Shown here piece by piece: positions 8,054-9,683 of a stretch of DNA of 37,035 nucleotides. Every line of letters starts with the position of its first letter. Within the stretch, counting starts at the first letter, position 1. The notes beneath the pieces are model-generated. The model saw only the letters and a list, made by a program, of their open reading frames with translations, ran no database searches and had not been told where the DNA came from. The translations under genes and the position numbers were made by a program. Source of the stretch: a virus; IMG/VR virus record IMGVR_UViG_3300030099_000795, positions 1 through 37,035 of that record; one strand, given 5' to 3'.

Positions 8054-8356
8054 ATGACAAAAACTAAAAAACAATTTAGAAAAGATGAACCACCAATACC
8101 ATTTCACTATAAATTTTATTTGGTATATTGGGAAGATATACAGAGTGATAGTGGTTGGCGTGATATTAAAGATATACAAAGCTCTAAACCTGCTATATGT
8201 GTATCAACAGGTTGGTTAGTTAAGAAGGATAAAAAAGTTCATATTCTTATGTCAGATTATAATTATGATGATAAAGGTGAAATGGCAGATGGTGGTAATA
8301 CTACTGTGATACCTACAAAAAATGTAATAAGAAAATATGAGATCGAGGGATTATGA
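8054..8356 (+). CDS. Conserved hypothetical phage protein
   Basis: This protein has 100 residues from the ATG at 8054, or 104 from the ATG at 8042. The later start is preferred because the earlier one is inside the promoter's -10 box, but this would make the message nearly leaderless. The body is a mixed alpha/beta sequence with VYWEDIQSDSGWRDI, STGWLVKKDKK and an IPTKNVIRKYEI end, a pattern I associate with small beta-barrel-like phage proteins of unknown role. It overlaps bS21 by an ATGA, so the two are translationally coupled. Confidence 0.75.
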   Translation: MTKTKKQFRKDEPPIPFHYKFYLVYWEDIQSDSGWRDIKDIQSSKPAICVSTGWLVKKDKKVHILMSDYNYDDKGEMADGGNTTVIPTKNVIRKYEIEGL

Positions 8357-8562
8357 GTTTAGAAGTAACCGTTAGAAATAATAATGTAGATAAGGCCATG
8401 AGAGTTTTAAAAAAGAAACTACTTAAAGATGGTCTGATGAGAGAGTTAAAAGATAGGCAATACTATTCTAAACCCTCTCTTGTAAAAAGAGAAGCAAGAA
8501 AACAAGCAATCAGACGATTGAAAAAAGAACAAAGATTGAAAGCTTTGAAAGACGGTTTTTAG
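8353..8562 (+). CDS. rpsU: Ribosomal protein bS21
   Basis: This is a 69-residue homologue of bacterial ribosomal protein S21. The family pattern is clear: VTVRNNNVDKAMRVLKKKL, then GLMRELKDRQYYSKPS, then a strongly basic helical tail (VKREARKQAIRRLKKEQR). It is full length for the family. S21 sits on the 30S platform by the anti-Shine-Dalgarno end of 16S rRNA and helps in choosing messages. Phage-encoded S21 is known from marine and other uncultured phages and is thought to bias host ribosomes toward phage mRNA. It starts in an ATGA overlap with the gene before it. A predicted pseudoknot follows its stop. Confidence 0.93.
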   Translation: MSLEVTVRNNNVDKAMRVLKKKLLKDGLMRELKDRQYYSKPSLVKREARKQAIRRLKKEQRLKALKDGF

Positions 8563-8569
8563 AGATTAC

Positions 8570-8641
8570 TTGATATGAATAAGTTGCCCATATCAAATAA
8601 TGTAATAAACAATGGCAACTATGACTTGAAGGAGTTGATAT
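8570..8641 (+). promoter_or_regulatory. Predicted H-type pseudoknot with competing SD pairing
   Basis: Stem 1 pairs TTGATATG (8570-8577) with CATATCAA (8589-8596). Stem 2 pairs AGTTGCC (8582-8588), inside loop 1, with GGCAACT (8614-8620). The stems abut with no spacer, and loop 3 (8597-8613) is A-rich, as in classic H-type pseudoknots. The stretch AGTTGATAT at 8633-8641, between the ribosome site AAGGAG (8629-8634) and the ATG at 8645, repeats parts of both 5' strands. It could therefore capture CAACT or ATATCAA and mask the ribosome site. This suggests a two-state translational switch; the ligand or binding protein is unknown. Confidence 0.65.
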
Positions 8642-8644
8642 ATT

Positions 8645-8962
8645 ATGGGTAGAAAAGCCTTAACAAAAAAACAAAAAGTGTTAAATTTGTTATCAAGTGG
8701 TAAAGCAGTTGCTTGGACTACACTAAGAAACAAGTTTGATCTGACATCACCTAGAGCGATGGTAGATCAACTAAGAACTGAAGGACATATGGTGTATATT
8801 AATCAAACATCAAATGGTACTTCTTATCGCTTAGGTACACCTACAAAAGCAATTTTAGCTGCAGGCGTGAAGAAAGTGTTAAAAGGTAACACAAATGAAA
8901 TCGTGGCTGCTGGTATCAGAGCTTTATACGGTAAACAAAAATACGCTTACTCTAATCAGTAA
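8645..8962 (+). CDS. Winged-helix-like DNA-binding protein
   Basis: The first 65 residues of this 105-residue protein look like a winged helix-turn-helix. Helices KKQKVLNLLSSG, AWTTLRNKF and SPRAMVDQLRTEGH are followed by a beta wing (HMVYINQTSNGTSYRLG). The C-terminal part (ILAAGVKKVL and IVAAGIRALYG) is a repeated helical motif. It may bind DNA as a phage regulator, or bind RNA; no target is visible. It has a good AAGGAG ribosome site, but this lies next to the predicted pseudoknot, so translation may be controlled. A T4-type late box follows its stop. Confidence 0.75.
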   Translation: MGRKALTKKQKVLNLLSSGKAVAWTTLRNKFDLTSPRAMVDQLRTEGHMVYINQTSNGTSYRLGTPTKAILAAGVKKVLKGNTNEIVAAGIRALYGKQKYAYSNQ

Positions 8963-8975
8963 GAGTATAATATCG

Positions 8976-8983
8976 TATAAATA
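8976..8983 (+). promoter_or_regulatory. T4-type late promoter TATAAATA
   Basis: This is an exact match to the T4 late promoter core. Transcription would start about six bases after the box, near 8989, and run into a structured non-coding stretch. Confidence 0.65.
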
Positions 8984-8984
8984 G

Positions 8985-9190
8985 TAATGTCAGGCAGTTC
9001 GTAAGTCCTAGACATTAGAGGTAGAGTGTCTTCCGCAAAGACACCATTTTGAGTTTTCGCCGTTTCTCTAAAAAACGGCGCCTACTGGTCCATTGGTCTT
9101 TGAGGTTATGAGAGCCATTAATTCTTTAGGGTAAATGTGGGTGAGACCTACCACTACCAGTTTTATAGGGGCTTGAAATTTTAAAAAGAG
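8985..9190 (+). ncRNA. Candidate structured non-coding RNA or long leader
   Basis: No credible gene lies here for about 300 bases, but several strong inverted repeats do. TAATGTC (8985-8991) pairs with GACATTA (9011-9017). GTGTCTT (9026-9032) pairs with AAGACAC (9038-9044). CGCCGTTT (9058-9065) pairs with AAACGGCG (9073-9080). ACTGGT (9084-9089) pairs with ACCAGT (9156-9161) and encloses a smaller hairpin at 9137-9151. A TATAAATA box lies directly upstream and another lies between it and hsp20. It does not fit tRNA or tmRNA. It may be a small RNA or a processed leader; no family is recognised. Confidence 0.5.
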
Positions 9191-9196
9191 TTCTTA

Positions 9197-9204
9197 TATA
9201 AATA
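9197..9204 (+). promoter_or_regulatory. T4-type late promoter TATAAATA upstream of hsp20
   Basis: This is an exact late-core match. The expected start near 9210 falls at the foot of a hairpin (ATGATAC 9208-9214 with GTATCAT 9226-9232, extended by CTC/GAG), so the hsp20 message would carry a 5' stem-loop. Confidence 0.65.
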
Positions 9205-9263
9205 ATTATGATACGCTCATGTGAGGTATCATTTAGATTAACTTGCTTAATAAGGAGAAAAAA

Positions 9264-9683
9264 ATGACAAGACTATCTATATGGAACGATTTGCGTCCAT
9301 TCTCAGTAGGATTTGATGATCTATTCGATCACTTTAACAATCAGTTAGAGATCAAACAAACATCATCTTATCCACCTTACAACATTAACAGAATAGATGA
9401 TTTAAATTATCAGATTGAAATGGCACTTGCTGGCTTCAGTAAGAATGACATTGAAATAAAATATTCTGATAATCAATTAACTATCAAATCAATTGAGAGT
9501 GAGGATAAGGACGAGAAGGAAACTTTACATAGAGGCATCTCAAAAAGAAAATTTAGCAGAGCATTTACTTTGGCTGAAGATATCAAAGTTAATGGTGCTG
9601 AGTTGAAAGACGGAATGCTTTTAATTGAGTTAGAGAAAATCGTACCAGAGGAAAAGAAACCTCGAACAATTGACATCAAGTAA
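9264..9683 (+). CDS. hsp20: Hsp20 small heat-shock protein
   Basis: This is a 139-residue alpha-crystallin-type chaperone. The alpha-crystallin domain is recognised by YQIEMALAGFSKNDIEIKY, QLTIKSI and the later GAELKDGMLLIELEKIVP. The tail ends with an I-x-I-like anchor (TIDIK) used for assembling oligomers. The start is the ATG at 9264 after AAGGAG; a TTG at 9243 is upstream of that site and unlikely. Hsp20 is a common gene of T4-like cyanophages and pelagiphages, where it probably protects or folds virion proteins. A late promoter upstream agrees with this. Confidence 0.92.
   Translation: MTRLSIWNDLRPFSVGFDDLFDHFNNQLEIKQTSSYPPYNINRIDDLNYQIEMALAGFSKNDIEIKYSDNQLTIKSIESEDKDEKETLHRGISKRKFSRAFTLAEDIKVNGAELKDGMLLIELEKIVPEEKKPRTIDIK

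Follow-up and report, generated by a model that had tools for sequence, protein, structure and literature searches.

A conserved pseudoknot leader upstream of a winged-helix gene in marine T4-like phages

The pseudoknot in the gene 32 mRNA of phages T4 and RB69 is an autogenous translational operator that is absent in RB49 (PMC535899, PMC3014915), and a 2010 review regarded the T4 knot as perhaps the sole viral pseudoknot used for translational autoregulation (PMC3014915). The same T4 transcript is cut by RNase E at -71, directly upstream of the knot, and no other T4 mRNA is as stable (PMC3014915). Among other described systems, the tisB 5' pseudoknot is required for 30S/S1 binding (PMC7708055), distinct pseudoknot operator structures can reportedly serve orthologous ribosomal protein (r-protein) genes (PMC4137082), and a SAM-II-like motif precedes methionine genes in SAR11 bacteria (PMC2704228). 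Here we describe a pseudoknotted leader in IMG/VR virus record IMGVR_UViG_3300030099_000795, a single 37-kb viral contig record, whose 37,035 nucleotides (nt) we refer to as the window. The knot sits between the stop codon of a bS21 gene and the Shine-Dalgarno sequence (SD) of a gene for a 105-residue winged-helix protein (start codon at 8645). Because both stems keep pairing in relatives despite changed letters, comparison of sequences argues that the leader is a real, conserved and uncatalogued control element, which probably sets how much winged-helix protein is made.

The pseudoknot and its conservation

The leader contains two perfect, interleaved stems of 8/8 and 7/7 pairs, with no base between the 5' arm of stem 2 and the 3' arm of stem 1 and with an A/U-rich third loop (loop 3) of 17 nt (Table 1). 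The arms are exactly those given in a sequence-only reading of this DNA, which had proposed that they form a two-state translational switch. The SD lies outside the knot behind an 8-nt linker, and 24 nt separate the knot from the AUG. The summed stem energy of -24.1 kcal/mol, a stacking sum without loop penalties that serves to rank candidates and is not a folding free energy, was the top value among 2956 overlapping 90-nt segments of both strands. It was reached by 0/1500 dinucleotide shuffles of the knot's own 100 nt, the best of which gave -20.3. No further copy of the knot and no other knot of equal strength was found on either strand of the window. The pseudoknot is real.

We compared the leaders of relatives of the downstream winged-helix protein taken from IMG/VR, mostly on metagenomic contigs. 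Seventy-two distinct pseudoknots passed an energy filter, and setting aside those that were doubtful, partly parsed or of another class (L084, L087, L158, L159, L161) left 67. Among the 72 there are 42 different stem 1 helices, such as TTGATATG/CATATCAA, TATTAGATAG/CTATCTAGTA, TAAACAGC/GCTGTTTG, AACTCAATACT/AGTGTTGAGTT and TTGCATAGT/ACTATGCAA, and 25 different stem 2 helices, including GTTGCC/GGCAAC, GTTGTC/GACAAC, GTCGCC/GGCGAC, GTGCC/GGCAC and TGTTGTT/AACAACA. Nearly all positions of both stems show 2-6 standard pair types, the exceptions being sparsely sampled outermost positions. Covariation in both stems, which the sequence-only reading had proposed to look for, was thus present among the leaders of 67-72 relatives. 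In a MAFFT alignment made without fitting to the structure, paired cells amount to 83.6%, compared with 75.1% on average for shuffles and 31-47% with slid partners; the covariation score was 0.326 against 0.202 for shuffles, and pairing and score were each reached by 0/500 shuffles. The shuffled control ignores kinship, whereas the slid-partner control retains it, and the many wholly different helices are evidence in their own right. The test is conservative, since rows misaligned by MAFFT (L063-L072, L160-L185) count against the structure. G-U pairs, present in 53 of the 67 leaders, fit RNA.

Known families do not account for this leader. An Rfam covariance-model search returned no match at the gathering threshold or at E<=10, consistent with the earlier failure to assign the element to a known riboswitch. 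Leader DNA gave only chance-level matches (E ~0.04) to cultured phage records, and a literature search on cyanophage pseudoknots turned up no account of the element. A broad DNA pattern tried on viral contigs (TGTTGCC-N15-32-GGCAACA) was too unspecific and was not used. The element is an uncatalogued pseudoknot leader family of marine T4-like phages, related to phages of SAR11 and OM43 bacteria. The best cultured matches of the winged-helix protein are in HTVC008M, Mosig and Melnitz, all Kyanoviridae, whose hosts are SAR11 and OM43-type (Methylophilales) bacteria.

Stem 1 appears to be longer than its perfect core, a feature absent from the sequence-only reading. Leaders with a short stem 1 of 6-8 base pairs (bp) nearly all carry ATTAC (or TTAC) directly 5' of it and GTAAT (or GTAA) in loop 3, whereas those with a long stem 1 show an uninterrupted run of 10-12 pairs. 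Overall, stem 1 may thus comprise ~10-13 pairs, with a bulge in the window's clade, where ATTAC/GTAAT probably extends it as a lower stem. Compensatory changes in the lower stem are few, namely ATTAT/ATAAT (L063/L066) and ACTT/AAGT, ACTA/TAGT and ACTA/TGGT (L160/L175/L184); because the ATTAC/GTAAT arms vary little, direct support from covariation is modest.

The knot ends 23-25 nt upstream of the ATG in 55 of the 72 cases, among them clades in which the upstream gene differs and the open reading frame is N-extended. Some distant clades have a compact knot 24-29 nt from the ATG, in which a 4-bp stem 1 is constant (AGTC/GACT) and stem 2 varies (TTGACC/GGTCAA, TGACA/TGTCA, TGTG/CACA, GTGCA/TGCAT). 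Others have a plain hairpin, the arms of which have been replaced (AATCATCA/TGATGATT, CTGCAC/GTGCAG, CTACAC/GTGTAG, TATCACA/TGTGATA) and which lies 20-27 nt from the ATG. On a weakly resolved protein tree these structure classes cluster, needing 7 changes where shuffles average 26.7, and canonical knots occur in several of its deep branches.

Two further features were seen in the distant clades. In compact-knot leaders (L105-L110, L161, L164, L165, L190), a 5' hairpin ATTAC..GTAAT precedes the knot, directly after a promoter-like sequence, and loop 3 is UUAAA-like. In leaders of the Melnitz-like clade (L111-L157), the winged-helix gene has a promoter overlapped by inverted repeats whose arms change: in AAGAGGGGA..TTGACA..TCCCCTCTTTTT a terminator-like hairpin carries the -35 box in its loop, and a second example, ACCCTAGAAATAGGGT, lies between -35 and -10. 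One inverted repeat, in L155-L159, also scored as a knot; it overlaps the promoter, and we left it out of the counts of the element.

Table 1. Features of the leader and its two flanking genes in the window
Feature	Position	Strand	Remarks
Probable lower stem, 5' arm ATTAC	8565..8569	+	would extend stem 1 across the 3' bulge ATAAT; partner GTAAT 8602-8606
Stem 1, 5' arm TTGATATG	8570..8577	+	8/8 Watson-Crick with CATATCAA
Loop 1, AATA, 4 nt	8578..8581	+	0-5 nt and A/U-rich in relatives
Stem 2, 5' arm AGTTGCC	8582..8588	+	7/7 pairs with GGCAACT
Stem 1, 3' arm CATATCAA	8589..8596	+	pairs with TTGATATG
Loop 3, ATAATGTAATAAACAAT, 17 nt, A/U-rich	8597..8613	+	contains probable lower-stem 3' arm GTAAT 8602-8606
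Stem 2, 3' arm GGCAACT	8614..8620	+	end 24 nt upstream of start codon
SD, AAGGAG	8629..8634	+	within conserved CTTGAAGGAG (8625-8634)
AGTTGATAT, formerly proposed competing strand	8633..8641	+	overlaps and follows SD; not conserved, rejected as switch element
bS21 gene, upstream neighbour outside the element	8353..8562	+	stop TAG 8560-8562; Ribosomal_S21 E 5e-16
Winged-helix gene, 105 residues, predicted to be governed by the element	8645..8962	+	HTH_39 profile, AlphaFold, structural neighbours

The gene that owns the element and its product

The genes around the knot in the window run in the order CobS-like AAA ATPase, phrog_25889 gene, bS21, knot, winged-helix gene, Hsp20 and gp45 sliding clamp, followed by others that include DNA polymerase. 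Several relatives separate the knot from bS21, the absence of which was judged at the locus. Five loci (L075, L077, L087, L091, L094) have the order CobS, promoter-like TTGACA/TATAAT, knot and winged-helix gene, with no bS21 between; in L061 bS21 lies 777 nt upstream, and in L160-L189 none of five tested neighbour genes is found at the locus. Conversely, in HTVC008M bS21 adjoins the winged-helix gene, yet there is no knot. We also scanned DNA for the pattern GGC(A/G)AC-N2-9-CTTGAAGGAG, that is, the 3' arm of stem 2 plus the linker. Among the matches listed (at least 214, at fetched loci), which cover this type of stem 2 and count overlapping loci repeatedly, 122/122 with a strong knot precede the winged-helix gene and none precedes another gene; no match without a strong knot precedes the winged-helix gene. 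Because loci with bS21 absent or far away retain the knot, gene order argues that the element belongs to the downstream winged-helix gene and not to bS21.

The 105-residue product is a winged helix, a nucleic-acid-binding fold of three helices and a beta-wing. Of 36 homologues, 29 matched the HTH_39 profile at E<=0.05, the best of them at 2e-5; the window protein alone matched at E 0.013, below the gathering score. An AlphaFold model has the order helix-helix-helix-strand-strand, with block-mean predicted local distance difference test (pLDDT) values of 66-79 over residues 1-60 and an unsure C-terminus. Among solved structures, BirA and ArsR-type winged helices come closest in fold (Z ~9). Because a Foldseek search against the PDB gave no match at E<=0.001 and generic winged helices only, no function was inferred from particular structural matches. 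The region of the recognition helix (SPRAMVDQLR in the window) is nearly invariant in homologues. A C-terminal insertion (alignment columns ~84-103) varies, being long in the window's clade and missing in the Melnitz-like clade. This record holds no second copy of the gene.

A proposed translational operator and its alternatives

Since all strong knots among the matches listed precede one gene and the product is predicted to bind nucleic acid, we lean, at somewhat less than an even chance, towards a gene-specific translational operator of the winged-helix gene, probably autogenous and like that of T4 gene 32. Of the signals that had been suggested for the putative switch, a ligand, the winged-helix product or the ribosome with bS21, the winged-helix product is the candidate that we prefer. 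The folded knot would leave the SD free, and a 30S subunit could therefore load on it. Once bound by a protein, most likely the product of the winged-helix gene, the knot would obstruct the 30S footprint at its upstream edge, and the protein would thereby limit its own synthesis. Recognition would go by knot shape or by the A/U-rich loops, because stem letters drift freely. That the protein controls its own translation through a letter-free pseudoknot read by shape, and that lineages rewrote both helices many times and even put a compact knot or hairpin in its place at an unchanged distance from the start codon, is a more specific proposal that we consider unlikely, though far from negligible.

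Several observations weigh against an operator. The mean pLDDT of the AlphaFold model, 59, indicates modest confidence. The recognition helix hardly varies, in contrast to both RNA stems, and DNA is the usual ligand of winged helices. The linker lacks the ~40-nt UUAAA-repeat coating region of gene 32. Lastly, the HTVC008M and Mosig orthologues are without a pseudoknot and Melnitz has only a hairpin, so an operator would have to be replaceable.

The main rival, less likely than the operator and still a serious contender, is a passive translation and stability element. A knot, compact knot or hairpin would insulate the ribosome-binding site (RBS) from upstream RNA and protect the 5' end of the transcript from RNases, with no regulator sensing it, and it may have a docking or standby role at the 30S platform. 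This reading would explain why structure is kept while sequence is free, and why a spacing of 20-29 nt is kept even with a compact knot with a 4-bp stem 1 or a simple hairpin. It also suits the clades with their own promoter-like sequence, where the structure starts near the predicted 5' end, and it has precedents in tisB (PMC7708055) and in the stability of T4 gene 32 mRNA (PMC3014915). Drift of the stem letters, together with replacement by other folds, would point either to recognition of shape or to such a passive role at the 30S edge or the 5' end. However, a generic aid would be expected before many phage genes, whereas all 122 strong knots among the matches listed precede one gene, and nothing else in the window forms a knot of such strength.

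A small-molecule riboswitch of the pseudoknot type, in the style of preQ1, SAM-II or SAM-V, is improbable. A compact H-type knot does adjoin the RBS, and SAR11 hosts use such knots, as in the SAM-II-like motif cited above (PMC2704228), but the downstream gene encodes a winged-helix protein and not a metabolic one, and Rfam gave no match even at E<=10. No ligand pocket appears to be conserved either, because no well-sampled position of loop 1 or loop 3 keeps one base in more than 76% of 21 representatives.

We consider it more improbable still that the winged-helix protein binds stem 1 as a DNA palindrome and represses transcription. Although the fold of the protein and the inverted repeat formed by stem 1 would suit a DNA operator, the 42 different stem 1 helices share no conserved half-site despite the nearly invariant recognition helix, the G-U pairs in 53/67 leaders break DNA symmetry, and the second, interleaved stem is equally conserved.

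Sensing by the ribosome or bS21, in which phage bS21 on the 30S platform would read the knot upstream of the SD, is very improbable. It draws on bS21 being the gene that precedes the knot in the window and in most close relatives, and on a knot ending at -24, which would lie near the platform. The loci described above disfavour bS21 as the signal, since the knot stays with the winged-helix gene at loci that lack bS21 or carry it 777 nt away, and HTVC008M has bS21 beside the gene but no knot.

The least probable reading, which we reject, is the two-state on/off switch with AGTTGATAT as its competing strand, which had been made to depend on conservation of AGTTGATAT, found in only 13 of 67 distinct leaders. 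That stretch does overlap and follow the ribosome site (8633-8641 against 8629-8634), and the competing helices ATATCAA/TTGATAT (7 bp) and CAACT/AGTTG (5 bp) can form in the window, but they are not conserved in relatives, and the 7-bp pairing is far weaker than the pseudoknot (-8.0 against -24.1 kcal/mol by stacking). The idea of a conserved competing helix over the ribosome site fares no better: the best pairing of either 3' arm, of stem 1 or stem 2, with the stretch after the knot outdid shuffled spacers (p<=0.05) in only 1.5% of leaders, a rate below chance expectation. The SD region of the window, AAGGAGTTGAT (8629-8639), resembles the extended complement of the anti-SD of 16S rRNA, AAGGAGGTGATC, and is one base off that complement as AAGGAGGTGAT; this likeness may explain its recurrence near the SD in close relatives.

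Downstream elements and comparison with known systems

Other structured candidates lie between the winged-helix gene and hsp20. Positions 8976-9085 of the window hold a candidate phage small RNA or structured leader, consisting of a T4-type late-promoter-like TATAAATA (8976-8983) followed by three helices (TAATGTC..GACATTA, GTGTCTT..AAGACAC and GCCGTTT..AAACGGC). Its core, GGTAGAGTGTCTTCCGCAAAG, occurs in 72 IMG/VR contigs, which yield 49 distinct elements; helices 1 and 3 show compensatory changes, and HTVC008M has a diverged version with three replaced helices (L083, ~2750-2850). A search of this element against Rfam gave no significant match, and the window shows no enrichment of TATAAATA. 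The borders of the element are sharp, because the ~95 nt that follow it (9086-9190) are missing as a block in some relatives (L002, L030, L079). The hsp20 leader (9197-9264) has a second TATAAATA (9197-9204) and then a strongly conserved hairpin, TGATACGCTCA..TGAGGTATCA.

If the operator reading of the knot is true, this leader would be a second and more widespread case of viral pseudoknot autoregulation, in marine T4-like phages, and would give the first hint of a role for a conserved winged-helix gene that is annotated as hypothetical in cultured relatives. The natural series of compensated variants makes recognition by shape directly testable.

Among known systems, the T4/RB69 gene 32 knot is the closest in predicted mode of action. 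Both are H-type knots that precede an accessible RBS in the leader of a T4-like phage gene, the product of which binds, or is predicted to bind, nucleic acid, and both are absent in some relatives. They differ in that the gene governed here would encode a winged-helix protein instead of the single-strand-binding protein gp32, and in that the knot here ends 24 nt from the AUG. Homology is not part of our claim, as the coating region and the gp32 product that mark membership of that family are both lacking. With tisB the leader shares a pseudoknot whose structure matters, or would matter, for translation (PMC7708055), but the tisB standby site lies ~100 nt upstream of a sequestered RBS, whereas in the window the RBS adjoins the knot and is apparently open. 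The preQ1, SAM-II and SAM-V riboswitches likewise place an H-type knot near the RBS; they differ from this leader in their conserved ligand pockets and their Rfam families. Finally, r-protein operators of the rpsO/S15 type are alike in using pseudoknots for autoregulation and in that distinct structures can serve orthologous genes, and they differ in that here no r-protein gene lies directly downstream, the SD is outside the knot and bS21 is merely a neighbour.
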